Positions 31,775 to 43,737 of a stretch of DNA of 64,000 nt are shown here, piece after piece. The stretch is taken from positions 62,001-126,000 of the forward strand of contig JASBSU010000041.1 in NCBI GenBank assembly GCA_030148725.1. The letters run 5' to 3'. Position 1 is the stretch's first letter. Every line of letters begins with the position of its first letter. The notes under the pieces were generated by a model. It was not told the DNA's origin, made no database searches, and saw nothing but the letters and a program-made list of their open reading frames with translations. Both the position numbers and the translations under genes were made by a program. The DNA comes from Hyphomicrobium sp. Lineage in GTDB: Bacteria > Pseudomonadota > Alphaproteobacteria > Rhizobiales > Hyphomicrobiaceae.

Positions 31775-33607
31775 TCAGGGCTGACTGGCAGCAGGCGTTG
31801 CGGTTGCTGCGTCGCTGCTGCGCCAACGGACCACGAATTCGAGCGGCATCGCGATCGTCCAGCTGACGCCATCGGGATCGAAGCGGTAGTCGACCTTGGC
31901 ACTCAATGCTTGGCCCACGACGCGTTCGATCACCACGTGCCCAAACCCTTTAACGGACGGCGGCGATACGCGTGGCCCGTTGTGCTCCTTCCAGTGAAGA
32001 ACGAGGCGTTGCTGTCCTTCTGCGTCGGTTTCGAAGCTCCACTCGACGCGTAGGCGTCCGGCGGATGTGGACAGGGCGCCGTACTTAGCGGCGTTGGTCG
32101 CGAGTTCATGCAACGCGAGGCCGAGGTTCTGAGCTGCCGTGGCGTTCACAAACACCGGCAAACCCTTGCACTCGACTGCGTCCGCTGCATTGCCCGTGAA
32201 AGGCTGGAGAACGGCGCGCACCAGCTCTTCCAGCGAAGCGCCGGTCCAATCTTCGGCAACGAGCAGGTCGTGAGACGCCGAGAGACTCTGCAGGCGTTGG
32301 ATGAGCTGCGACTGCAAGACCGCAACGTCCGTCGATTTGCGTGCGGTCTGGCGCACCATGGCGACGATGACGGCGAGCAGGTTCTTCGTGCGGTGCGATA
32401 GTTCACGCATCACCATCCGCAGGTGCTTTTCGACGCGCTTGCGCTCCGTGATGTCGCGGAATACCGCTGAGAAGCCGAAGATGCGTCCATCGGGGCGCCG
32501 CATGGGCGCGACGTTTATGTTCACGTCATGCAGGCTGCCGTCCTTGCGACGGCGGACGGTATCGCGCAGCACGTGCTCGCCATGTCGCAGATGGCGATAC
32601 TTCTCTTCGAATTCCTGTTCGGCGCCTTCGGGGAAGAGAAGCCGTTCGGATTTGCCGATCACCTCATCGGCGGTGTAGCCGAACATGCGCTCGGCGCCGG
32701 GATTCCATGACTGGATGATCCCGTCGCTGGACATGGAGATGATCGCGTCGGCAGACGTTGCGACGATGGTCGCCAGCTGAGCGTTCTTCTCAGCTTCCTC
32801 GAGGTGCTCGGTGATGTCGGTATTGGTGCCGAACCAACGGATGACCTTGCCGGTGTCGTCGCGAATGGGCATGGCTCGCGACAGGAACCAGCGATAGACG
32901 CCGTCACGGCCTTTGAGCGGGAAGGTATCTTCCCACACTTCGCCGGTAGTCAGGCAGCGGTTGATTTTCTCCATCGTCCGGTCGACGTGCTCGGGGTGCT
33001 GGCGGAGTGGCCAGCCCCACTCTCGCGCTTCCTCAAACGGCAGACCCGTGAAGTCGAACCAGCGCTTGTTGTACCAGTAGATGTGTCCAGCAGCGTCGGC
33101 CATCCAGGCAAAAGCTGCGATGTTATCGGCGAGCGTGCGGAAGCGAGACTCGCTCTCTCGTTGGGCGCGCTCCGCGAATACCCATGGGGTCGTATCGACC
33201 ACGATCGCAAGCACGCCGAGAACCTTGCCGCCGTCGCCGCGAATTGGGCTGTAGTCGAGGTTGGTCCAGACGTCCTCTGGGGTTCCTCGGCGGTTGAGGT
33301 TGAAGTGCTTGTCGCGAAAGGACAGAGCCTCCCCCGACATGCCCATTTCAAGAATGCGCTTGTTGAAATCGGCGGCTTCCGGCCAAGCCTCGATCACCGG
33401 CATTCCAAGGAGACCCGGATGACGCAATCCGGCGAACGCCGCGTACCCGTCGTTATAGATCATGGTACCTTCGGGTCCCCACAGCAGGACCATCGGCACC
33501 GGCGACGCCGTCATGAGATCGACCGCACACTTTAGGCACCCCGGCCAGCGGTCGATTGGGCCAACTGGCGTTTGGCTCCAGTCGAATTCCTCGATGCGTT
33601 TCTTCAT
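31775..33607 (-). CDS. Soluble PAS sensor kinase of the HWE family
   Basis: About 610 residues, no membrane helix. Three PAS-like domains (about 25-145, 150-275, 285-405; the last ends FRDITERKR) precede an HWE kinase core with RELSHRTKNLLAV, N-box HELATNAAKYGAL and HWKEHNGP. HWE/HisKA2 kinases are the class that phosphorylates PhyR, whose gene is 0.5 kb away. A perfect EcfG-type promoter sits with its -10 at 33646-33649, so transcription would begin near 33640. This favours ATG 33607 (MKKRIEEF) over ATG 33631 or the TTG at 33661. Confidence 0.88.
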   Translation of the reverse strand: MKKRIEEFDWSQTPVGPIDRWPGCLKCAVDLMTASPVPMVLLWGPEGTMIYNDGYAAFAGLRHPGLLGMPVIEAWPEAADFNKRILEMGMSGEALSFRDKHFNLNRRGTPEDVWTNLDYSPIRGDGGKVLGVLAIVVDTTPWVFAERAQRESESRFRTLADNIAAFAWMADAAGHIYWYNKRWFDFTGLPFEEAREWGWPLRQHPEHVDRTMEKINRCLTTGEVWEDTFPLKGRDGVYRWFLSRAMPIRDDTGKVIRWFGTNTDITEHLEEAEKNAQLATIVATSADAIISMSSDGIIQSWNPGAERMFGYTADEVIGKSERLLFPEGAEQEFEEKYRHLRHGEHVLRDTVRRRKDGSLHDVNINVAPMRRPDGRIFGFSAVFRDITERKRVEKHLRMVMRELSHRTKNLLAVIVAMVRQTARKSTDVAVLQSQLIQRLQSLSASHDLLVAEDWTGASLEELVRAVLQPFTGNAADAVECKGLPVFVNATAAQNLGLALHELATNAAKYGALSTSAGRLRVEWSFETDAEGQQRLVLHWKEHNGPRVSPPSVKGFGHVVIERVVGQALSAKVDYRFDPDGVSWTIAMPLEFVVRWRSSDAATATPAASQP

Positions 33608-33645: not shown

Positions 33646-33670
33646 AACGAAGACCGAACAAAAGAGTTCC
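33646..33670 (-). promoter_or_regulatory. EcfG-type promoter for the soluble HWE kinase gene
   Basis: On the minus strand GGAAC (33670-33666), 16 bases, CGTT (33649-33646). Exact match to GGAAC-N16-CGTT, about 39 bp before the preferred start. Confidence 0.85.
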
Positions 33671-33725
33671 ACGCGGCCCCGCAGAGTTGTGCTGAAGGTC
33701 GTGTGGTTTGCGCCAGAGATCGGGC

Positions 33726-33750
33726 GGAACTTAAGTACTCGCGGACGGTT
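33726..33750 (+). promoter_or_regulatory. EcfG-type promoter for the DUF1328 gene
   Basis: GGAAC (33726-33730) then 16 bases, then GGTT (33747-33750); only the C of CGTT differs. The DUF1328 start is 43 bp downstream. Confidence 0.75.
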
Positions 33751-33792
33751 GTTCACTTGGGCGAAGCCGGCCTGAGCACTCCGAGGATCTCC

Positions 33793-33966
33793 ATGGGCAA
33801 TCTAATCTACTGGGCGGTTATTTTTCTTATCATCGCTCTCGTCGCGGCATTTTTCGGTTTCGGCGGGGTGGCAGGCGTCGCCACAGAGGGCGCCCGTATA
33901 CTCTTCTGGGTTGCGATCGTGCTGGTCGTCATATCTTTTATCGCCGGCATGATGCGCCGGGGGTAG
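33793..33966 (+). CDS. DUF1328 small membrane protein
   Basis: 57 residues with two helices ([20 protein letters not shown] and [18 protein letters not shown]), the YtjA/DUF1328 layout with FGFGGVAG between them. Start at ATG 33793 after GAGGATC. Members are frequent general-stress genes in Hyphomicrobiales, which agrees with the EcfG-type promoter upstream. Function unknown. Confidence 0.88.
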
Positions 33967-34045
33967 GATGCTCCATATAATATTCATTCGTATCAATGAC
34001 ATAACTGGCTTTTGGCGCAATTATTCAAAAGGCTTGCGCCAAGCC

Positions 34046-34070
34046 GGAACTTTTCTCGTTATTGAGCGTT
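34046..34070 (+). promoter_or_regulatory. EcfG-type promoter for phyR
   Basis: GGAAC (34046-34050), 16 bases, CGTT (34067-34070), exact consensus; phyR starts 48 bp downstream. This gives positive feedback on the stress response. Confidence 0.88.
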
Positions 34071-34117
34071 TGGCACCAACTGAGCATCATGTGTGGACGG
34101 CCTAAGAAGGGGAGACC

Positions 34118-34933
34118 ATGTCCATCTCGGAAATCATCGCGCCGCAACTTCCTTACCTTAGGAGGTTTGCGCGCGTTCTATCGGGCAGCCAGGACAGTGG
34201 CGACGCGTATGTGGTGGCGATGCTCGAGGCAATCGCTGCCGAACCTTCGATGTTCCCCATCGACTTGGAGCCGCGCGTTGCCACGTATCAGTCGTTCTTG
34301 GACGTCTGGAATTCGGTTCGTTTGAACCATCAGAAAATCGATGCGCCAGTATCGGAGCGGCTTGCCGCCGCCGACCGAAAGCTGGAGGCGATCACGCCGC
34401 GGGCCCGTCAGGCCTTCCTGCTCATGGCAGTCGAAGAGTTTTCGACTTCCGACACCGCGAAGGTGCTGAAGACCGACGAAGCCGAAGTAAAGGCGCTCGT
34501 CGATCAGGCGGCATCTGAAATCGCTGAGCAGGTCGCAACCAACGTGCTGATCATAGAGGACGAGCCAATGATTGCGCTCGACCTTGCTGACCTCGTCACT
34601 GGCCTCGGCCATGAAGTGTCAGAGACGGCGCGCACGCACACGGAAGCGGTTGCCGCCTTCAGGAAGCATCGGCCTGGTCTGGTTCTCGCCGATATCCAGC
34701 TCGCGGACGGCAGTTCGGGACTGGAAGCCGTCAACGAGATCCTGCAGTCGTTCGACGTTCCGGTTATTTTCATCACGGCATATCCAGAGCGCCTGCTCAC
34801 CGGAAGCCGCCCGGAGCCGACCTTCCTCGTCAACAAGCCTTTCCGCACCGAGACAGTCCAGGCCGTCATCAGCCAGGCACTGTTTTTCGACTACAAGGCG
34901 CGGCGGCAAGAGGCCAAGCTCGCTTCGGCCTGA
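34118..34933 (+). CDS. phyR: PhyR general stress response anti-anti-sigma regulator
   Basis: 271 residues: sigma-factor-like domain (1-~130, with a sigma2-like N-terminal part and a sigma4-like part around 90-130) fused to a receiver (142-260) with EDE acidic pocket, phospho-acceptor Asp192 (VLADIQLA) and Lys in VNKPF. When phosphorylated PhyR exposes the sigma-like part and takes NepR away from EcfG. Preceded by an EcfG promoter and GGGGAGA; convergent with ecfG. Length and architecture match PhyR exactly. Confidence 0.96.
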   Translation: MSISEIIAPQLPYLRRFARVLSGSQDSGDAYVVAMLEAIAAEPSMFPIDLEPRVATYQSFLDVWNSVRLNHQKIDAPVSERLAAADRKLEAITPRARQAFLLMAVEEFSTSDTAKVLKTDEAEVKALVDQAASEIAEQVATNVLIIEDEPMIALDLADLVTGLGHEVSETARTHTEAVAAFRKHRPGLVLADIQLADGSSGLEAVNEILQSFDVPVIFITAYPERLLTGSRPEPTFLVNKPFRTETVQAVISQALFFDYKARRQEAKLASA

Positions 34934-34956
34934 CGCGCACATATTTCTTCATGACA

Positions 34957-34988
34957 ATGGGCGGGTTCTCGAACCCGCCCATATTTTT
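34957..34988 (+). terminator. Rho-independent terminator after phyR
   Basis: A 12-bp perfect stem (ATGGGCGGGTTC with GAACCCGCCCAT) with a two-base gap at the tip is followed by ATTTTT. Located 24 bp after the phyR stop. Confidence 0.88.
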
Positions 34989-35088
34989 GCGTGTGCATTG
35001 GGCTCAAGTCGCGCACGCGTTGTCGCTCGTTGAAGCGATCCAACGCATCATTGGTGGCTGTGCAGAGTGGGCTTGATGGGAGGCTAGA

Positions 35089-35655
35089 TCAGACCCGCGC
35101 TGATCGACGGGGCGTCCGATCGGCGGCGGGTTGGCTCGCGTCGTCGGTCTGCTGCTGGGCAGGAGGCGCGGTCATCAGCTCATTGAGGCGCGTACGGGCA
35201 CGGTTGACGCGGCTCTTCACCGTTCCCACAGCACATCCGGAGATGGCTGCAGCGTCCTCGTAGGAGAAACCTTCAGCGCCCACGAGAATAAGGGCTTCGC
35301 GCTGGTCCGCGGGCAGCTTTGAAAGCGCGCGGTTGAGGTCCACCAGATCGAGGTGGCCCTGCTGCTCGGCCGGAACGGAAAGCTTGGCGGCGAGCTGACC
35401 CTCGCTGTCGGCCACTTCACGCTTCGTCTTGCGCAGCTCGGAGAAGTAAGCGTTGCGCAGGATGGTGAACAGCCAGGCTTTCAGGTTGGTGCCTTCCTCG
35501 AAGGAATCGAGGTGGTTCCAAGCCTTCACGAGGGCTTCCTGGACGAGATCGTCGGCGTGGTCGCGATTGCCACACAGCGAGATCGCGAACGCGCGCATGT
35601 TGGGGATTGCGGCGATCAGATCGTCGTTGAGTCTGCCCTGCAAGCCATTGCTCAC
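35089..35655 (-). CDS. ecfG: ECF sigma factor EcfG
   Basis: 188 residues. Sigma2 (RAFAISLCGNRDHADDLVQEALVKAW, given here only by ends RAFAISL and DLVQEALVKAW; then LKAWLFTILRN) and sigma4 (LPADQREALILVGAEGFSY, AVGTVKSRVNRARTRL), the EcfG/ECF15 type. Start is GTG 35655, overlapping the nepR stop (GTGA), so the anti-sigma is made first and coupled. EcfG directs RNA polymerase to GGAAC-N16/17-CGTT promoters, nine of which occur nearby. Ala/Pro/Arg-rich tail. Confidence 0.96.
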   Translation of the reverse strand: MSNGLQGRLNDDLIAAIPNMRAFAISLCGNRDHADDLVQEALVKAWNHLDSFEEGTNLKAWLFTILRNAYFSELRKTKREVADSEGQLAAKLSVPAEQQGHLDLVDLNRALSKLPADQREALILVGAEGFSYEDAAAISGCAVGTVKSRVNRARTRLNELMTAPPAQQQTDDASQPAADRTPRRSARV

Positions 35656-35972
35656 GAGTTATCCTCCTCGCCACTGGGGCTCGGGGGCGTCGCGGCCTCC
35701 TGGCGCTGCAATTGCTTAATCAGGTCGTTGATGCGGTCGGGGACGGGCGTGCTCAGAAGCTCGCCGTAAGCAGCGCGCAGCTGCTTCCCGAGAATGTCCG
35801 GCAGAACAGTTTGTGATCCGCGCGGGCGCTGAGCGCTGCCGGTTGTCTGCTCGTCGGCATTGTCGCCGCTAGACTGCGTCACCTGCACACTGCCGCTGCC
35901 GTCAGCGGCAGCGCGCTTAGGCTCCTGTGAGCCGTATGGCGCGCTCACATAAGCCTTTTTCTCGTCCGACAT
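35652..35972 (-). CDS. nepR: NepR anti-sigma factor
   Basis: 106 residues. The conserved two-helix NepR core LGKQLRAAYGELLSTPVP...INDLIKQL lies at about 61-88, preceded by a disordered Ser/Gln/Gly-rich N-terminus and followed by an acidic tail. It holds EcfG inactive until PhyR binds it. First gene of the nepR-ecfG unit with an EcfG-type promoter about 98 bp upstream. Confidence 0.94.
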   Translation of the reverse strand: MSDEKKAYVSAPYGSQEPKRAAADGSGSVQVTQSSGDNADEQTTGSAQRPRGSQTVLPDILGKQLRAAYGELLSTPVPDRINDLIKQLQRQEAATPPSPSGEEDNS

Positions 35973-36069
35973 CAGCGGCCCTCCGCCTCCCCTTCGTAAG
36001 TACAGCGATTGTCCTTTGAGGACACCTTATGCGGCCGCGGACCATATCATCTGGTCCGGAAGCATCAAG

Positions 36070-36095
36070 AACGCGCGCCTACCGCACCGAGTTCC
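36070..36095 (-). promoter_or_regulatory. EcfG-type promoter for nepR-ecfG
   Basis: On the minus strand GGAAC (36095-36091), 17 bases, CGTT (36073-36070). About 98 bp upstream of nepR; autoregulation of the anti-sigma/sigma pair. Confidence 0.8.
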
Positions 36096-36152
36096 GCCGC
36101 TCCTCAGATTTTATTCCTGTTGCGGAGATATCGCCTTGCCGCCCCAGCGGGT

Positions 36153-36177
36153 GGAACGCGACCTAGAGCATTACGTT
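36153..36177 (+). promoter_or_regulatory. EcfG-type promoter for the membrane HWE kinase gene
   Basis: GGAAC (36153-36157), 16 bases, CGTT (36174-36177), exact consensus, 51 bp before ATG 36228. Divergent from the nepR promoter. Confidence 0.87.
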
Positions 36178-36227
36178 ATGAGTTTCGTACGCCGGGTTTT
36201 TGGGAGGGCGTACATAACCAACAAGCG

Positions 36228-38294
36228 ATGCGAATGCTCGATAGGTTCCGCCCGGCTGGCTGGTCCATCCAGGCTCATTTTTTGCTCTACAGCTCGGCGC
36301 TGCTCATTCCGGCGTTGATTTTCAGTGGGTTAATGATCCTCAGGTCGGCGTCGCTGGAGCGTGCGGCGATGGAGAGCGACATTACCGAGGTCGCTCGCGA
36401 AGTTGCGACCGCGATCGACCGCGAGCTTGCGGCCGCCAAGACCACGCTCATCGCCCTCGGATCCTCGCCGGCGCTAACGGAGGGCGAGCTCGAGGCCTTT
36501 CATGACCAAGCTGTCGCGGCGCGAGACATCAACGGCATCGACTATCTACTCACGAGCCGGACGGGCAAGCAGCTGCTGACGACGCAAGCGCCGTGGGACG
36601 GCAAATCGGTTCAGGAAGCGGCCGCTCCGATCGACGCGAAACAAGTTCTTGAGGCAGCCGCTCCAGTTGTCTCGGACATTTTTGCAGCGCCTGCCGGTAT
36701 GCGGTCTTTCACAATCTCTATCTCCGTGCGTCGTGGCTCGCGGGCGCTTTACGTGCTCAGCGCGCTGATGTCGTCGGCGCGGATCGAAGAGATACTCAAG
36801 CAGGCGCAGCTCGCCAAAGGATGGGCGGCCACGGTGGCTGACCATCGGGGAAAGATCGTCGCGCGCTCCGATGCTGTGGCGAGACGCAGTGGCGAGGCCA
36901 TGCCCGACGAGGATGTCGTCGTGGACCGACTGACGGGGGCCGCGATATGGAGGACCGCAGGGAGCGACGAACAGCCTGTGCTGCGGTCAACTGCGCGCTC
37001 GCAGCAGTCGGGATGGGTCATCTCGACGACTGTTTCCGAGGCGATTGCCAATCGGCCGATCGTGCGCTCGTGGGTCCTAGTCGCGATCCTGGCGGTCAGT
37101 TTTTCGCTGCTCTCCGCGCTGCTCGCATTCCTCTTCGGGCGGCGGCTGTCGGAGCCGGTACGCTCGCTTGTTCAAGATGCCCGAGATCTCGGCCGCGGCG
37201 ATCTCGTCGCACCTCGCAATTCGTCCATCGTGGAGGTTCGCGAGGTGGGCGAAGCGCTCGTCAATGCCAGCGAGACGCGTCGCCAGATGGAACGCTCGCT
37301 GCGCGAAAGCGAAGACAGGCTGAAGCTGGCGCTTGCGTCGTCGGAAACCGGCGCGTGGGATTGGGATCTCACGTCGCGAACGCTGAAGTGGGATCAACGG
37401 ATGCGCGAGTTGTGGGGCCTCGCGCCGGACGATCCGGTGTCCTACGAAGTCTTTCTCGCGGCTCTTGATCCGCATGATCGTGAGTTGACTGCGAAAGCCG
37501 TCGAACGGGCGCACGATCCGGAAATCCTCGCAGAGTATGACGTGCAATATCGCGTGAAGGGTGTGCGCGATGGCATCGAGCGGTGGATCGCTGCAACAGG
37601 GCGAACGCAGTTCCTCGACGGCGTGCCGATCCGCATGGCCGGCACGGCGCGCGACATCACTGACCGGAAGCGCTGGGAGGAACATATCCAGCTGCTGATG
37701 CGGGAGGTCACGCACCGGTCGAAGAACCTTCTCGCGGTCATCCAGGCGATGGCGCGGCAAACGAAGCTCGCCAGCAGCGACGTCAACGATTTCGAACGGC
37801 GCTTCTCCGGGCGTCTGCAGTCGCTGGCCGCGGCGCATGACCTTCTGGTGCAGCGCGACTGGCGCGGTGCTTCGATGTCAGAGGTGATCAAGTCCCAGCT
37901 CGGGCATTACCTCGATCAACAGGCGGGCCAGATCGATATGAGCGGGCCAAACCTGACCGTAACGCCAGAGGCGGCGCAGAATATCGGCCTTGCCGTCCAC
38001 GAGCTTTCGACCAACGCAGCGAAATACGGTGCGCTGTCGGTGCCAGAGGGGCGGGTCGACGTCCGGTGGCAGAGGGAAGGGGAAGGCGCCGATGAAGGCC
38101 GCATCCACCTGACGTGGACCGAGCGCGGCGGCCCTTCGGTGTCGCAGCCGACGCGGCGGGGTTTTGGGCAGGTCGTCACGGAGCAGCTGACCGCGCGGGC
38201 CCTGCAGGCGAGCGCCAACCTCAGCTTCGAGCGCTCCGGCGTTTGCTGGAGGCTCGATATGCCAGCGAAGCTGGTTCTCGCGGAGCAGGCGTGA
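36228..38294 (+). CDS. Membrane-bound HWE-family sensor kinase (PhyK-like)
   Basis: 688 residues. Helix near 20-37 (ALLIPALIFSGLMIL), an extracytoplasmic dCache-like domain (about 40-270), second helix near 283-306 (VLVAILAVSFSLLSALLAFLF), HAMP-like linker, PAS (about 365-485, ending ARDITDRKR) and HWE kinase core with REVTHRSKNLLAV, HELSTNAAKYGAL and TWTERGGP. The architecture and the place beside nepR-ecfG-phyR match PhyK-type kinases that start PhyR signalling. ATG 36228 lies downstream of an exact EcfG promoter, and a second ATG is two codons in. It is therefore probably a feedback-controlled sensor. Confidence 0.9.
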   Translation: MRMLDRFRPAGWSIQAHFLLYSSALLIPALIFSGLMILRSASLERAAMESDITEVAREVATAIDRELAAAKTTLIALGSSPALTEGELEAFHDQAVAARDINGIDYLLTSRTGKQLLTTQAPWDGKSVQEAAAPIDAKQVLEAAAPVVSDIFAAPAGMRSFTISISVRRGSRALYVLSALMSSARIEEILKQAQLAKGWAATVADHRGKIVARSDAVARRSGEAMPDEDVVVDRLTGAAIWRTAGSDEQPVLRSTARSQQSGWVISTTVSEAIANRPIVRSWVLVAILAVSFSLLSALLAFLFGRRLSEPVRSLVQDARDLGRGDLVAPRNSSIVEVREVGEALVNASETRRQMERSLRESEDRLKLALASSETGAWDWDLTSRTLKWDQRMRELWGLAPDDPVSYEVFLAALDPHDRELTAKAVERAHDPEILAEYDVQYRVKGVRDGIERWIAATGRTQFLDGVPIRMAGTARDITDRKRWEEHIQLLMREVTHRSKNLLAVIQAMARQTKLASSDVNDFERRFSGRLQSLAAAHDLLVQRDWRGASMSEVIKSQLGHYLDQQAGQIDMSGPNLTVTPEAAQNIGLAVHELSTNAAKYGALSVPEGRVDVRWQREGEGADEGRIHLTWTERGGPSVSQPTRRGFGQVVTEQLTARALQASANLSFERSGVCWRLDMPAKLVLAEQA

Positions 38295-38332
38295 CGAATT
38301 GGCCGCGGAGCCGTGGCGCCGTCGCCCTGATG

Positions 38333-38358
38333 GGAACTTTGCGAGCTATCTCCGTGTT
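38333..38358 (+). promoter_or_regulatory. EcfG-type promoter for the NepR-like gene
   Basis: GGAAC (38333-38337), 17 bases, TGTT (38355-38358); the C of CGTT is T. It lies 30 bp before ATG 38389. Confidence 0.65.
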
Positions 38359-38388
38359 TTGGTTGAAACTCGATCAAAATGGATACTC

Positions 38389-38646
38389 ATGGTGAGGCAA
38401 CTTAAAAATCAAGAGCTTACAAAGCTCATTGGTCGCCGCCTCAAAGAAACGTTTGAGGATAGCGACAGCGGCTTGCCGCGCGCATTTTCGGAAGGGCTCG
38501 ACGCTATTCGGCGGGCCGAAAAGCAGCAAGCGGGTGGGTTGAGAGAGATTGTTCTCGACATCGGCAACGGTGATAATGGGGCGACTGTCGCAGACTCGCA
38601 TGCAGAGGCTGCAGAGGTAAACGGCTCGCGCGACGCCGGCGGTTAA
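38389..38646 (+). CDS. Second NepR-like small protein
   Basis: 85 residues. Residues 13-45 (IGRRLKETFEDSDSGLPRAF, then EGLDAIRRAEKQ) align with the NepR core (LGKQLRAAYGELLSTPVPDR) with one gap: a first helix beginning I/L-G-x-x-L-R/K, then L/V-P, then a second amphipathic helix. The tail is acidic. This suggests a second anti-sigma-like or PhyR-binding protein with a divergent loop. It is preceded by an EcfG-type promoter and 24 bp before a Crp/Fnr-type gene that is probably co-transcribed. Homology is short, so the call is tentative. Confidence 0.65.
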   Translation: MVRQLKNQELTKLIGRRLKETFEDSDSGLPRAFSEGLDAIRRAEKQQAGGLREIVLDIGNGDNGATVADSHAEAAEVNGSRDAGG

Positions 38647-38670
38647 AGTCCGCGGGCGGGGGAGGGACGT

Positions 38671-39432
38671 ATGGCGGAGAAGAAGGAGGTACTGGCGCGC
38701 CAAGTGCCGTGCCAGCTTTGTCCGCTGCGTAAGCTGGACATTTTCCGGCCGTTCACTCCCGAAGAACTCGACTTCGTATCGCAATTCAAGACCGGTGAAG
38801 TGAAGGTGAAAGCGGGCGATCCGCTTTTTCTGGAGGGCGCGAACTGCGCCCATCTCTATACGCTGCTTTCGGGGCTAGCGTTCCGCTACAAGCTTTTGCC
38901 CGATGGCCGGCGGCAGATCCTGAATTACTGCACACCCGGAGACTTCCTGGGTCTGCAAGGTTCGGTCATGCAGGAGATGCAGCACTCCGTTGAGGCACTC
39001 TCCGACATGGTGCTTTGCGTGTTTCAACGCGAAGGGCTTTGGCGGCTATTTGAGTCTCATGCCGGATTGTCGTTCGACGTCACCTGGCTGGCGGCCCGCT
39101 CCGAGCAGATCCTCGATCAGCAGTTGCTTTCTGTGGGCCGGCGCAGTGCGCTCGAGCGGTGTGCGCATTTGCTGCTGCATCTGCTTGATCGCCTTGCCGA
39201 GCTCGGCATGACATCGTCGCGCGCTACCGTGAGTATTCCGATCACCCAGCAGCACATCGCCGACACCCTCGGCCTTTCGCTCGTGCATACCAACCGAACG
39301 CTCGGGCGGCTGATGCGAGAGGGAGCCATACGCTGGCGCGAGAAAGAGTTTGAAATTCTGGACCGCAGCCGTCTGGCTGAGCTTGCCAGCGAGGAAGGCG
39401 CGCTGACAGGCGCGACGCGGCCGCTGCTCTAA
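38671..39432 (+). CDS. Crp/Fnr-family regulator with N-terminal CxxC
   Basis: 253 residues. N-terminal CQLCPLRK pair, cNMP-like beta-roll (about 30-130), dimer helix and winged HTH (ITQQHIADTLGLSLVHTNRTLGRL). The recognition helix (LSLVHTNRTL) differs from the E-x-x-S-R of FNR, so it should read another site. The two cysteines plus others (CAH, CTPGD) leave open a redox or metal role, but a full 4Fe-4S set is not evident. GGGGGAGGG precedes ATG. It probably shares the EcfG promoter of the NepR-like gene. Its stop overlaps the convergent receiver gene. Confidence 0.88.
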   Translation: MAEKKEVLARQVPCQLCPLRKLDIFRPFTPEELDFVSQFKTGEVKVKAGDPLFLEGANCAHLYTLLSGLAFRYKLLPDGRRQILNYCTPGDFLGLQGSVMQEMQHSVEALSDMVLCVFQREGLWRLFESHAGLSFDVTWLAARSEQILDQQLLSVGRRSALERCAHLLLHLLDRLAELGMTSSRATVSIPITQQHIADTLGLSLVHTNRTLGRLMREGAIRWREKEFEILDRSRLAELASEEGALTGATRPLL

Positions 39433-39962
39433 GTGGCGGTGCGGCGATTGATGCAGACCGCGACGGCAGTTGCGAGAGCTTCGGCGCTGTAGGGCTTGTG
39501 CACTACCGGCACCCCCGCAAACCGTTCGGGAATGAGTTGAGTGTCGCCGTACCCCGTGGTGAACATGAAGGGGATGGCGCGTTCCATCAGAGCATCGGCG
39601 ACGGGGTAGGATGTGGCTCCGGCAAGCGCGATGTCGAGTACGCCGAGGTCGGCCTGCGCGACGGCGAGCCACTGCAAAGCGGCCTCGGCAGTCGTGAAGG
39701 ACACCACGCTCGCAGCGCCGAGCTCGAACAATATGCTTTCGGTGTCCAGTGCGATGATGGTCTGGTCTTCGACGAGGAGGGCGCGCAAGCCTTTTGCCTG
39801 TGCGCCTGGTGCGCCGTCGCCCGGATCGCGCGGGTCGAACTGCGGTTCGTCGGAGTTCTCCGGGAGCAGCTTCTTAGGCCCGGGTTGGCGACGCAGAAGT
39901 AAGGGGGAATGGGGCAATTCGCATCGAGCCTCGCTCCGGCCGGGGGTGGCCGGTGGCTCCAT
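39429..39962 (-). CDS. Single-domain response regulator
   Basis: 177 residues; the receiver (about 59-175) has VEDQ, phospho-Asp in LGVLDIALAG, an FTTGYGD switch segment and VHKPYS. The first ~55 residues are Pro/Gly/Glu-rich and may be unstructured, or the true start may be internal. Output-less receivers of this type often work with HWE kinases as phosphate sinks or shuttles, so a role in the PhyR phospho-network is plausible. No EcfG promoter was seen upstream. Convergent overlap of 4 bp with the Crp/Fnr gene. Confidence 0.78.
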   Translation of the reverse strand: MEPPATPGRSEARCELPHSPLLLRRQPGPKKLLPENSDEPQFDPRDPGDGAPGAQAKGLRALLVEDQTIIALDTESILFELGAASVVSFTTAEAALQWLAVAQADLGVLDIALAGATSYPVADALMERAIPFMFTTGYGDTQLIPERFAGVPVVHKPYSAEALATAVAVCINRRTAT

Positions 39963-40027
39963 CCATAGGGTTCGAACGGTTGGCGAGCGACATCATTTGA
40001 TGTACTCGGCCATAGAAGCCCTATGAC

Positions 40028-40057
40028 AAAAAGGGCCGGGACAAAGTCCCGGCCCTT
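40028..40057 (-). terminator. Rho-independent terminator after the DUF892 gene
   Basis: AAGGGCCGGGAC and GTCCCGGCCCTT form a 12-bp perfect stem with a three-base loop. On the minus strand it is followed by TTTTTGTC. It lies 19 bp after the DUF892 stop. Confidence 0.88.
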
Positions 40058-40075
40058 CACCTGAAGCCAGCGGCC

Positions 40076-40564
40076 TTAGGCTGCCTGCTTATTGAGCTTG
40101 CTTTCGGCCAGCTTCGTCAGTTTGCTATCGGCGTTGTGCTCTTCCTTCAGCGTAGCGGAAAGCAGCTTTGCCGCGTCGGGCAATTCCAGCAGCTCGGCCC
40201 ATGAGACCAGCGTGCCATAGCGCGTGATTTCGTAGTGCTCAACGGCCTGGGCGGCTGCGATCATCGCTGCGTCGCGGGTATCGGGGTCCTTGATCTCCTT
40301 CATCAGCTCCTCGCCCTCCTCGAGGATGCCCTCGATGGCCGGGCACTTCTCGCCCTGAGGCTTCTTGCCGAGCAGCTTGAACACTTCCTCGAGGCGCTCG
40401 ACCTGGCCTTTGGTTTCTTCGAGATGCGATTCAAGCGCGCGCGCCAATTCTTTGGCATCGGCAGCCTTGATCATCTTCGGCAGCGCTTTGGTGATCTCCT
40501 TCTCCGCGAAATAGATGTCTTTCAGCGTGTGCAGAAACAGATCAGATAGATTTTCGACTTTCAT
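40076..40564 (-). CDS. Ferritin-like DUF892 (YciE/YciF-type) stress protein
   Basis: 162 residues, a four-helix ferritin-like protein: LFLHTLKDIYFAEKEI, the SHLEETKGQVERLEEVF helix, QAVEHYEITRYG and LSATLKEEHNADSKLTKLAE, with Glu/His placed as in YciE/YciF. Members respond to osmotic, desiccation or oxidative stress and may bind metal. A perfect EcfG promoter lies 36 bp upstream. Terminator 19 bp downstream, so it is a single-gene unit. Confidence 0.92.
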   Translation of the reverse strand: MKVENLSDLFLHTLKDIYFAEKEITKALPKMIKAADAKELARALESHLEETKGQVERLEEVFKLLGKKPQGEKCPAIEGILEEGEELMKEIKDPDTRDAAMIAAAQAVEHYEITRYGTLVSWAELLELPDAAKLLSATLKEEHNADSKLTKLAESKLNKQAA

Positions 40565-40599
40565 CGCTGGGCACTCCTGTGGGGGACGAGTCAGCGAAA

Positions 40600-40624
40600 A
40601 ACGTCAGCGTGTTTGGAAGGTTCC
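40600..40624 (-). promoter_or_regulatory. EcfG-type promoter for the DUF892 gene
   Basis: On the minus strand GGAAC (40624-40620), 16 bases, CGTT (40603-40600), exact consensus, 36 bp before the start codon. Confidence 0.88.
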
Positions 40625-40748
40625 TGATGTGGCGGGAACATCATTTGGACGACTTTGACGACAATCTAAGTTTTGGGGTTCGCACGACGTTCAGTTTTCC
40701 GGAGGAGCAGCACTCCGCCGGATGCAGCATTGCACGAGGGGGATACGC

Positions 40749-40958
40749 ATGGGTGCGATCATGATCCGCTGCCCGGCTACGGATGAGCTGGTTCACGTCG
40801 GGATCGATACGGACAAGGACACCTTCAAAGCGTTGCCGAATGTCGAAGCCACCGCGGTTCACTGCCCGGCCTGCGGCGGCTATCACACATGGTCCAAGAA
40901 GGACGCGGTGCTGGAGACGACTATGCGCATAAAGTCGAAGCCGCCCGGCAACACATAG
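40749..40958 (+). CDS. Small zinc-ribbon-like protein
   Basis: 69 residues. IRCPATDE...HCPACGGYHTW forms a probable Cys/His zinc ribbon similar to small hypothetical proteins of Hyphomicrobiales. No other motif, no membrane segment. ATG 40749 (MGAIMIRC) was chosen; an earlier in-frame ATG at 40722 exists. It lies between DUF892 and a Crp/Fnr gene, divergent from the first and convergent with the second. Function unknown. Confidence 0.65.
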   Translation: MGAIMIRCPATDELVHVGIDTDKDTFKALPNVEATAVHCPACGGYHTWSKKDAVLETTMRIKSKPPGNT

Positions 40959-40982
40959 CGCCGGGTTCGACCTTCACCGCAT

Positions 40983-41648
40983 TCAGTCCGCGTCCGCGAA
41001 CTGCTCGAGAGCATCAAGGTCTGCAATGCGCAGGCCGTCAGGCGCTGCCTCAACGATGCCGCGCTTCTCAAGATCGCGCAGGATGCCGGCAAGCGCGTCG
41101 AGGCTCAACCCGAGATGCTCAGCCACCGTGCCGGATGAGAATTCGTCAGAGATGAGGTTCGGATCGCGTCCTTCGGAGACGCCCAGGCGCGCGATTGCGG
41201 ACAGGAACGAAGCTACACGCTTCTCTGGCTTGCCACTGCCGCTTGCGAGAGCGCGCACGCGCAGGAACTCGAATTCGCGATCGCCCGCGGCGGCGTAGCG
41301 TGCTGCCAGCTGGCCATCGGAATCCAGCAGCTGGTCAAACTCTTCCTCGCTCACCGGACTCACGATCGTCTTGGCGACGGCCTGAGCGGTGCTCGTATGC
41401 TCTGCGAGATGACCGAAGCCGATAATGTCGCCGGGAAATGCGAACTCGATGATCTCGTGATGTCCATCGTCCTGGCGCTGGTAGTGGCACAGGGCGCCGC
41501 GCTCGACGCGATAGAGTTGCGCGCGTTTGTCACCGGCGTTGAAAAGCATTTCGCCGCGCGCAAGCCGGCGCACCTGCGTCGGCCGCAGGATCGGGCGGAG
41601 GCACGTTGCGGGAGCGCGCTCAGCGCTCAGGTCGGTCACTGCAAGCAT
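40983..41648 (-). CDS. Crp/Fnr-family regulator, EcfG-driven
   Basis: 221 residues: cNMP-like domain (about 20-115, RGEMLFNAGDKRAQLYRVERG given only in part), dimer helix and HTH (SSGTVAEHLGLSLDALAGILRDLEKRG). No N-terminal Cys cluster; the recognition helix lacks E-x-x-S-R. The C-terminal part is closely similar to the HTH-only protein at 43.4 kb. An exact EcfG promoter lies 99 bp upstream, so stress should raise its level and it may carry the response to a second gene set. Confidence 0.87.
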   Translation of the reverse strand: MLAVTDLSAERAPATCLRPILRPTQVRRLARGEMLFNAGDKRAQLYRVERGALCHYQRQDDGHHEIIEFAFPGDIIGFGHLAEHTSTAQAVAKTIVSPVSEEEFDQLLDSDGQLAARYAAAGDREFEFLRVRALASGSGKPEKRVASFLSAIARLGVSEGRDPNLISDEFSSGTVAEHLGLSLDALAGILRDLEKRGIVEAAPDGLRIADLDALEQFADAD

Positions 41649-41746
41649 CTCGAGTACTCACTACTGAGGCAAACGATTTGGGGATCGCGCTTGCCACAAT
41701 CAAGTCAAAATCTGAGTGTGCTCAAACCCCTAGCTCGGTTTTTTAC

Positions 41747-41771
41747 AACGTAGCTCCAGGCGCACTGTTCC
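41747..41771 (-). promoter_or_regulatory. EcfG-type promoter for the Crp/Fnr gene
   Basis: On the minus strand GGAAC (41771-41767), 16 bases, CGTT (41750-41747), exact consensus, 99 bp before the start. The 331-bp gap 41649-41979 holds this and the next promoter and no gene. Confidence 0.85.
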
Positions 41772-41863
41772 GTGGGGAACATCCATATTCTTCGCAACGT
41801 GGCTTTCGAATGTTTCTAACAAAGACATGGTGAATATTGCGTGCGTCGGTTTCGTAAATTCGA

Positions 41864-41888
41864 GGAACCTAGGGGATGGCAACTCGTT
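41864..41888 (+). promoter_or_regulatory. EcfG-type promoter for the PRC-barrel gene
   Basis: GGAAC (41864-41868), 16 bases, CGTT (41885-41888), exact consensus, 92 bp before ATG 41980. Confidence 0.86.
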
Positions 41889-41979: not shown

Positions 41980-42402
41980 ATGAAGAAGATCATTCCTGCC
42001 GTCGCGCTGATTGCCACGATGTCCATTCCGGCTTTCGCGCAGGAGGCAACCACCCCGGCAGCCCAGCCCGCGGCTCCGATGACGAGCGGCGAGACCACGG
42101 CGGCTAAAAGCACGACCAGCGCCGACATCTCCGCCAACAAGCTCATCAACTCCAGCGTACGCAACGCCGCCAACGAATCCATCGGTGACATCAACGACGT
42201 CATTCTCGGCACCGATGGCCGCGTAGCGGCTGTGATCGTCGGCGTCGGCGGCTTTCTGGGCCTTGGCGAAAAGGACGTTGCGCTGCCGTTCGATCAGCTG
42301 ATGTTCGCGAAGGACGAGAGCGGCAAGCTCAACGTCACGACAAGCATGACGAAGGAGAGCCTGCAGTCGGCTCCCGAGTATGTGAAGCCCGACCGCTCCT
42401 AA
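41980..42402 (+). CDS. Exported PRC-barrel domain protein
   Basis: 140 residues: signal peptide (KKIIPAVALIATMSIPAFA, cut after AFA), a Thr/Ala/Pro-rich linker, then a PRC-barrel (NKLINSSVRNAANESIGDIN...VIVGVGGFLGLGEKDVALP, quoted only by short ends NESIGDIND and GFLGLGEKDVALP). Such periplasmic proteins are common stress-induced genes in Hyphomicrobiales; molecular role unknown. GAAGAGGAAG precedes the ATG. EcfG promoter upstream, terminator just downstream, so a one-gene unit. Confidence 0.88.
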   Translation: MKKIIPAVALIATMSIPAFAQEATTPAAQPAAPMTSGETTAAKSTTSADISANKLINSSVRNAANESIGDINDVILGTDGRVAAVIVGVGGFLGLGEKDVALPFDQLMFAKDESGKLNVTTSMTKESLQSAPEYVKPDRS

Positions 42403-42455: not shown

Positions 42456-42520
42456 CTTGCCGGCCGGCGCGGAACTTTCGCGACGAGCCATGACTTCTTT
42501 AATTTTGCTAGGAGCGAAAC

Positions 42521-42721
42521 ATGAATGATCGTCAAGAGGTGCTCTCGACGACGGAAGCGCGTCAGGGTTCTCCGCGCCGCCTCAATCTGCGCGTTCTCGG
42601 CGTGTCTTTGCTGATTGCGCTGGTCGCGGCCGGCGGGCTCTATACGGTCTTCTACGCGGGTAACACGTCCATCAGCACACCGGACCCGGCCCCGACGCAA
42701 CCAACGGCTCCCGGGCCGTGA
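42521..42721 (+). CDS. Small single-helix membrane protein
   Basis: 66 residues: charged N-terminus, one helix (LGVSLLIALVAAGGLYTVFYAG) and a Pro/Thr tail (DPAPTQPTAPGP), probably periplasmic. No family recognised. ATG after AGGAGCGAAAC, a good RBS. A GGAAC lies upstream at 42471, but no GTT follows at the right spacing, so EcfG control is not supported. Confidence 0.7.
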   Translation: MNDRQEVLSTTEARQGSPRRLNLRVLGVSLLIALVAAGGLYTVFYAGNTSISTPDPAPTQPTAPGP

Positions 42722-43365: not shown

Positions 43366-43737
43366 ATGCGTGCCCTTGCCCTCGAACCGATCCTTCCATG
43401 GCCCAAGGATAGCCGGCGCGTTGTAGGCCGCACACCGCCACCACTTCCGAGCGAGGCTGGATGGTCGAGCCACACCGTCAGGAGGCTGGAGGAGCCCCTG
43501 GCCAAGGTTGCTGCGCTCCTCATCTCGATTTCGCAGAACAACACCTATGAAGGCCGCGACCCGGCGCAGGTGCCTGACGCGCTGTCATCAGGGTTCGTCG
43601 CCGACTTGCTCGGCGTCGATGTCGAGACTCTTGCCTCGCTGCTGATTGATTTGCGCCACCGCGGCCTTATCGAGCCAGGCGATGACCATACGCTGCGGCT
43701 GAAAGATCTCGACGGTCTCCAGCAGCTGGTGAACTGA
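43366..43737 (+). CDS. Stand-alone Crp/Fnr-type HTH protein
   Basis: 123 residues. Residues ~45-122 (AKVAALLISISQ..., EGRDPAQVPDALSSGFVADLLG, then LIDLRHRGLIE and DLDGLQQL; quoted in parts) match the HTH end of the Crp/Fnr gene at 41 kb: EGRDP, D-x-x-S-S-G-x-V-A, L-R/K-x-R-G and a final DLD-x-L-x-Q are shared. The cNMP-binding half is missing, replaced by 45 unrelated Arg/Pro-rich residues. It could be a constitutive DNA binder competing for the same sites, or a degraded duplicate; the frame is intact with GGGAGAC before ATG. Confidence 0.75.
   Translation: MRALALEPILPWPKDSRRVVGRTPPPLPSEAGWSSHTVRRLEEPLAKVAALLISISQNNTYEGRDPAQVPDALSSGFVADLLGVDVETLASLLIDLRHRGLIEPGDDHTLRLKDLDGLQQLVN

Follow-up and report, generated by a model that had tools for sequence, protein, structure and literature searches.

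Genes and predicted promoters of the locus

The stretch of DNA analysed here, 64,000 nucleotides (nt) from Hyphomicrobium sp. (GenBank assembly GCA_030148725.1, contig JASBSU010000041.1, positions 62,001 to 126,000; "the window" below), encodes the sigma factor EcfG, its anti-sigma factor NepR, the anti-anti-sigma response regulator PhyR and two HWE histidine kinases, all of them Pfam-confirmed. The EcfG-type promoter pattern GGAAC-N16/17-BGTT (B being C, G or T) has nine exact matches on the two strands of the window, every one within positions 33646-41888, which bears out both the count and the coordinates given by an earlier sequence-only reading of this DNA. Very likely this DNA holds the locus for the general stress response in a relative of Hyphomicrobium, and EcfG would drive all nine promoters. 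The features of the locus are as follows.

31775..33607, minus strand: HWE histidine kinase 1 with PAS domains (PF07536, 7.1e-24; PAS families)
33646..33670, minus strand: predicted EcfG-type promoter (CGTT) of HWE kinase 1; exact match, with GGAAC-N16-AGTT or CATT within 250 nt upstream in relatives
33726..33750, plus strand: predicted EcfG-type promoter (GGTT) of the DUF1328 gene; -35 box and NGTT in 6/6 genomes
33793..33966, plus strand: DUF1328 small protein (PF07043, 6.5e-14)
34046..34070, plus strand: predicted EcfG-type promoter (CGTT) of phyR; exact in 6/6 genomes
34118..34933, plus strand: phyR, anti-anti-sigma response regulator (PF22029 and PF22233, sigma-like; PF00072, receiver)
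35089..35655, minus strand: ecfG, general stress sigma factor (PF04542, PF08281)
35652..35972, minus strand: nepR, anti-sigma factor (PF18557, 2.1e-9); 4-nt overlap with ecfG
36070..36095, minus strand: predicted EcfG-type promoter (CGTT) of nepR-ecfG; exact in 6/6 genomes
36153..36177, plus strand: predicted EcfG-type promoter (CGTT) of HWE kinase 2; exact in 3/3 genomes with the gene at the locus
36234..38294, plus strand: HWE histidine kinase 2 (PF07536, 4.2e-26, query from 36225)
38333..38358, plus strand: predicted EcfG-type promoter (TGTT) of the NepR-like gene and presumably of the Crp/Fnr gene that follows; exact BGTT form in 6/6 genomes
38389..38646, plus strand: nepR2, NepR-like protein of 85 amino acids (aa); profile evidence, no Pfam match
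38671..39432, plus strand: Crp/Fnr-family regulator (PF00027, PF13545), 24 nt 3' of nepR2
39429..39962 (start 39917 or 39962), minus strand: single-domain receiver with the FATGUY-like motif PFMFTTGYG (PF00072, 29.0 bits against a cut-off of 30.2)
40076..40564, minus strand: DUF892 protein (PF05974, 3.2e-60)
40600..40624, minus strand: predicted EcfG-type promoter (CGTT) of the DUF892 gene; also 5' of DUF892 in G003 and (elsewhere) NDB2Meth4
40983..41648, minus strand: crpB, Crp/Fnr-family regulator (PF00027, PF13545)
41747..41771, minus strand: predicted EcfG-type promoter (CGTT) of crpB; exact upstream site in 6/6 genomes
41864..41888, plus strand: predicted EcfG-type promoter (CGTT) of the PRC-barrel gene; exact in 4/4 genomes with the gene at the locus
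41980..42402, plus strand: PRC-barrel protein (PF05239, 7.3e-14)

All nine sites lie outside the genes called by a purpose-written codon-usage gene caller, whose codon scores were trained on the window and on the loci of five relatives (L031-L034 and L171). The end of the -10 box is separated from the likely start codon by 30-98 nt: 38 nt for HWE kinase 1 with ATG 33607 (14 nt with ATG 33631, the caller's choice), 42 nt for DUF1328, 47 for phyR, 97 for nepR-ecfG, 56 for HWE kinase 2, 30 for the NepR-like gene, 35 for DUF892, 98 for crpB and 91 for the PRC-barrel gene. The caller missed nepR2 at a stricter setting and misplaced some starts (phyR of SB8 and G003, probably crpB of L033 and L034), and the corresponding distances in relatives are approximate for that reason. 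Seven of the nine -10 boxes are CGTT; the DUF1328 site has GGTT and that of the NepR-like gene TGTT. Dinucleotide shuffles of the window (n=100) gave a mean of 1.57 matches and a maximum of 5, close to the figure of about one match per 64 kb previously estimated for chance, and nine were reached in 0/100.

phyR and nepR-ecfG are convergent, tail to tail, and nepR and ecfG are presumably co-transcribed. DUF892 is followed on its own strand by the receiver gene, and nepR2 closely by the first Crp/Fnr gene, so both followers are probably served by the upstream site. Window EcfG is 83-89% identical to the EcfG of five genus relatives and 52-90% identical to the matches L031-L079, many of which adjoin phyR (among 17 loci listed). 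The genome to which the window belongs (a 96% complete draft of 3.84 Mb in 61 contigs) has one strong EcfG match of three, the next shown being a distant extracytoplasmic function (ECF) sigma factor (E 2e-13, 31% identity). It also has one PhyR (EcfG being the other protein matched in the PhyR search), a single NepR that passes the Pfam cut-off and seven HWE matches, two of them in the cluster.

Conservation of the sites in relatives and around ecfG elsewhere

A search with EcfG returned 52 loci. Five relatives share the neighbourhood of the window beside lon and were compared with it, namely Hyphomicrobium SB8, NDB2Meth4, H. sulfonivorans S1 and strain D-2 (L031-L034) and the genus relative G003 (L171). 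Sites were scored over 250 nt upstream in the six genomes, window included, with starts set from conserved N-termini for phyR in SB8 and G003 and for nepR in L033 and L034. An exact site precedes general-stress genes in 38/49 gene-genome pairs (29/40 without the window), against 0/34 pairs (0/24 without the window) for control genes of the same loci. With a relaxed -10 box (NNTT) the figures are 47/49 and 4/34, all four of the latter before the 66-amino-acid open reading frame (ORF) that lies at 42521-42721 in the window. The sensor, switch and putative brake genes keep their sites while neighbouring genes have none. L033 and L034 are closely related, and the six genomes are therefore not six independent witnesses.

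The eleven misses, all in relatives, fall on HWE kinase 1 (5), DUF1328 (2), crpB (2) and a CsbD-like gene (2). crpB was scored 4/6 rather than 6/6 because its sites in L033 and L034 reach beyond 250 nt from the called start. At the locus these two genomes lack the PRC-barrel gene together with its site; DUF892 lies beyond lon in NDB2Meth4, with a site there too, and is a decayed remnant without a site in SB8, where it was not counted as a gene. The CsbD-like gene (identified by eye, 65 aa), which the 49 pairs include for the three relatives in which it was scored, lies beside nepR at L031:9194-9391 (plus strand), with corresponding ORFs in L033 and L034. SB8 has CGTT at the site of this gene, the other two AGTT. 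The gene was not seen in the window cluster.

Beyond the genus, 48 ecfG loci in four groups were scored, leaving out L080-L082 (27-34% identity to EcfG) and L042 (to judge by the coordinates of its genes and sites, an apparent near-duplicate of L041), and over these 48 loci sites crowd round ecfG. The 30 Rhodobacterales loci, which were assigned by record title, include many Roseovarius and hence are not independent, have 231 sites against 30 for reversed controls. Their density is about one site per kb in the first 1 kb from ecfG and falls to that of the control farther than 7.5 kb away. In Roseovarius pacificus (L060), 8.3 kb round ecfG contain 10 sites. The nine-site cluster is accordingly a rich instance of a widespread arrangement; with similar densities round ecfG elsewhere, it is not exceptional. 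Nor is clustering universal: no 8.3-kb stretch of L035, L050, L063, L075 or L077 has more than 1 or 2 sites, and the motif does no better than the reversed control, or worse, in L035, L073 and L077. The comparison provides evidence, beyond motif matching, that the targets of a stress sigma factor are packed round its own gene in the Hyphomicrobium clade and many Rhodobacterales.

NepR-like proteins, -10 boxes and the sign of the loop

The assignment of nepR2 rests on profile comparisons. Searched as a single sequence (from 38377, four codons 5' of ATG 38389), it matched no Pfam family, including the NepR model above its cut-off, and found relatives in 4/60 genomes, its own included; a sequence search of PDB returned two irrelevant weak matches for NepR2 and none for NepR. 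A profile of six nepR2 orthologues aligned to a NepR profile with an hhalign probability of 73.8 (E 2.9e-5, 42 columns). When it was run against 16,164 ORFs, the next 25 matches after five orthologues all directly precede ecfG (many from related Roseovarius), and 21 of these 25 are among the NepR-profile matches listed, with individual E-values that are weak (5.8e-5 to 0.16). Conversely, a profile built from 62 NepR-type ORFs gave E 6e-4 for the window nepR2 and 0.16, 0.21 and 0.34 for its NDB2Meth4, G003 and SB8 orthologues, and in view of these three values the kinship of nepR2 with NepR is likely, not certain. In 9/79 genomes of the family the NepR2 profile found a match, five of them in the genus (own included) and four weak ones outside (E 3e-6 to 0.01). 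Two of seven genus relatives, G004 and G007, have only a weak ECF match to EcfG (E about 1e-10) and no NepR2; they may have lost the response, or their fragmented drafts may miss it.

A further NepR-like ORF of 66 aa, NepR3, lies outside the cluster (L147:1012-1212, minus strand, contig C27); its ATG is preceded at 34 nt by an EcfG-type site with CGTT. It reaches E 5.5e-6 with the 62-ORF NepR profile, and among 6,176 background ORFs its own frame and a cut copy alone come near. Against the Pfam NepR model it scores 15.6 bits, below the cut-off, and similar sub-cut-off matches occur in 7/14 control genomes. A relative with about 64% identity is found in G003 (L250:1501-1701, minus strand), with a CGTT site 36 nt before the ORF, and the other 58 genomes searched gave no match.

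A precedent for such proteins exists in Methylobacterium extorquens. There the promoter of META2_0735, which encodes a NepR homologue, depends on EcfG, and the protein binds PhyR, with no binding to EcfG proteins seen; its overexpression lowers stress resistance, and it damps the response in what was proposed to be negative feedback (PMC4814048). A similar role is our best guess for the NepR-like proteins here, and by this analogy nepR2 and NepR3 probably feed back negatively after a delay, either as competitors for PhyR or through binding to EcfG.

The -10 boxes divide the genes of the cluster. CGTT is found in 28/28 cases before phyR (6/6), nepR-ecfG (6/6), crpB (6/6), PRC (4/4), HWE kinase 2 (3/3) and DUF892 (3/3). 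The base before GTT at the nepR2 site is T, T, G, T, T and G over the six genomes, and at the DUF1328 site G, A, A, T, T and G, C thus occurring in 0/6 genomes at either. In Sphingopyxis granuli, two promoters with CATT or TGTT gave more transcription once the box was made CGTT, and another gave less in vitro after the opposite change, though some off-consensus promoters were stronger than some consensus ones (PMC7083833). The cluster might therefore hold a graded programme written in its -10 boxes, with core and effector genes under CGTT and the nepR2 brake expressed weakly or at high EcfG only, giving a delayed, dose-dependent shut-off across the genus. We put this forward as a tentative and rather doubtful conjecture, a possible pattern noticed post hoc. 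NepR3 has a CGTT site, and the split accordingly does not cover every possible brake. Being conserved, the split suggests a specific rule, open to experiment, by which a single sigma factor could set amplification and shut-off in sequence.

In the circuit that we favour, which is modelled on characterised Alphaproteobacteria, stress would be sensed by the HWE kinases, leading to phosphorylation of PhyR, which would then remove NepR from EcfG. The freed EcfG would transcribe its own operon, phyR and both nearby kinases, along with the putative effectors DUF1328, DUF892 with the receiver, the PRC-barrel protein and the two Crp/Fnr regulators, and a few dozen scattered genes. With switch, sensors and brakes recharged together, a steep rise is expected in which sigma, anti-sigma and anti-anti-sigma factors stay in proportion. 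The earlier description of the locus as self-amplifying is no more than plausible, since possible brakes lie behind the same promoter class. The identities of the genes and the sites, placement and conservation of the cluster are direct observations; what we infer is that EcfG uses the sites, how phosphate flows, that the receiver and the first Crp/Fnr gene belong to the operons upstream of them, and what the NepR-like proteins do.

Several observations weigh against this reading. Genome-wide, the BGTT form has 136 matches against 156 for the reversed control pattern and the CGTT form 69 (7 of them in the cluster) against 84, so that the genome-wide scan proposed earlier failed as a test by abundance. 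Placement alone separates real sites, and it speaks for the reading: the 62 CGTT matches found away from the cluster include 42 in intergenic DNA and 29 that are promoter-placed (at most 250 nt before a start), against 15 and 7 of 82 reversed-pattern matches (82 of the 84 were scored and 2 left out), and the cluster holds 7/36 promoter-placed CGTT sites in 0.2% of the genome. Even here, the control rate of 7/82 implies that about 5 of the 29 are expected by chance. The proposal that sensor, anti-sigma, anti-anti-sigma and sigma genes all stand behind EcfG-type sites holds exactly for nepR-ecfG, phyR and kinase 2 in every relative with the gene at the locus, but kinase 1 keeps its site with a changed -10 box, the exact form being confined to its own genome and the relatives having GGAAC-N16-AGTT (4) or CATT (1). 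For that site in relatives it also matters that changing CGTT to CATT or TGTT in one S. granuli promoter lowered transcription in vitro (PMC7083833). Further copies of EcfG, NepR or PhyR could be missed in a draft of this completeness, and the net sign of the loop is unreadable from sequence because NepR and two NepR-like proteins share the promoter class.

That the matches are a chance pile-up in a GC-rich genome is barely credible. The motif is short and its whole-genome counts do not exceed the reversed control, but no shuffle reached nine, all nine sites are intergenic, the control genes of the relatives gave none (0/24) and the Rhodobacterales excess is large (231 vs 30); on these grounds, together with the genome-wide placement test and the conservation, this explanation was rejected. 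It is improbable, if less strikingly so, that EcfG uses only part of the nine, the DUF1328, HWE kinase 1 and NepR-like sites being weak or serving another ECF sigma factor. Their -10 boxes do depart from CGTT in their own genome or in relatives, but a GGAAC box with a spaced -10 variant stands upstream of all three genes in 6/6 genomes, TGTT, GGTT and CATT boxes precede EcfG-controlled genes in Sphingomonas melonis (PMC6599016), and the next EcfG match shown in the genome is the distant ECF factor described above. A more serious contender, which we regard as possible while short of an even chance, accepts the sites as real EcfG promoters and makes the locus net self-limiting, NepR, NepR2 and NepR3 rising with EcfG to cap or end the response. 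Three NepR-like genes behind EcfG-type sites and META2_0735, which is EcfG-dependent, binds PhyR and sensitises when overexpressed (PMC4814048), speak for it; against it, an early rise is favoured by the CGTT boxes of phyR and ecfG as against nepR2, which never has CGTT (NepR3, however, does), and published models expect positive autoregulation (PMC4814048). Amplification by EcfG and self-limitation could both be true at different times.

Relation to known circuits and further observations

The pattern agrees with published EcfG consensus sequences, GGAAC-N16-CGTT in Rhizobium etli (PMC3892343) and S. granuli (PMC7083833) and GAAC-N16,17-C/GGTT in M. extorquens (PMC4814048), and autoregulation of ecfG, nepR and phyR is standard (PMC4814048, PMC3892343, PMC7083833, PMC6599016). 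The locus is thus a well-stocked example of a known control circuit, the newer details being the two further NepR-like genes behind EcfG-type sites and the -10 split. The literature passages contained no mention of a general clustering of EcfG promoters about the ecfG gene in Alphaproteobacteria, which is weak evidence of absence, and a full-text search for Hyphomicrobium with EcfG returned a single paper, on Methylobacterium, so the circuit looks little studied in Hyphomicrobium.

With the alphaproteobacterial general stress locus the window shares all core proteins, the nepR/ecfG overlap, EcfG-type promoters before phyR and nepR-ecfG and a kinase nearby; it differs in that more neighbouring genes have sites and in the convergence of phyR and nepR-ecfG, the usual layout being divergent (PMC4814048). 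A convergent phyR at such a locus is mentioned for S. granuli, probably relative to the second ecfG (PMC7083833). In the SigT circuit of Caulobacter crescentus the sigma factor likewise increases expression of nepR and phyR as well as of two kinase genes, phyK and lovK (PMC5964349). PhyK and LovK are placed in HisKA2 (PMC5964349), whereas the kinases here match HWE_HK best, and extra NepR-like and Crp/Fnr genes are included here. META2_0735 and nepR2 are alike in that a NepR homologue, in the case of nepR2 a likely one, is encoded apart from ecfG, the promoter being EcfG-dependent there and predicted to be so here, but nepR2 belongs to the ecfG cluster and precedes a Crp/Fnr gene. In R. pacificus (L060), as here, phyR, nepR-ecfG and a gene that by eye is DUF1328-like are preceded by sites; most other neighbours differ, and phyR and nepR-ecfG point away from each other.

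Of the 29 genes behind promoter-placed sites elsewhere in the genome, 25 were taken into a Pfam scan. They include genes for superoxide dismutase, a pyridoxamine-oxidase-like protein, two PRC-barrel proteins, DUF883-type and transglutaminase-like proteins and OpgC, along with three receivers, one just under the Pfam cut-off. The top EcfG-regulated genes of S. melonis include PRC-barrel, general stress protein 26 and cAMP-binding-type genes (PMC6599016). A second small cluster (L135, contig C17:21700-35400) spans about 11 kb and contains five CGTT sites. Four of the five are promoter-placed and stand 5' of a receiver gene, a weakly DUF883-like gene, a 179-aa ORF without a Pfam match and a 59-aa ORF.

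The receiver of the window, PFMFTTGYG, carries T for A of the FATGUY motif PFxFATG(G/Y) (PMC5964349), and its start is uncertain. Elsewhere in the genome a single-domain receiver with the clean motif PFIFATGYG (L130:1235-1720) lies behind a strict CGTT EcfG-type site, with an HWE kinase match about 3 kb beyond it on the same contig (C14:46562).

Two features adjoin the cluster on its PRC-barrel side.

42471..42496, plus strand: possible tenth, degenerate site, GGAAC-N17-ACTT, 5' of a 66-aa ORF
42521..42721, plus strand: 66-aa ORF with one membrane span (by eye), called in 4/5 relatives

The 66-aa ORF has no Pfam family above cut-off. The degenerate site before it reads GGAAC-N17-CATT in 3/4 relatives where the ORF was scored, and a relaxed match stands 20-24 nt 5' of the ORF in 4/5 genomes scored, own included. 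Farther on, an ORF of about 123 aa (43366-43737) resembles by eye the C-terminal part alone of a Crp-type regulator, and lies near hsp20 and lon in three relatives.

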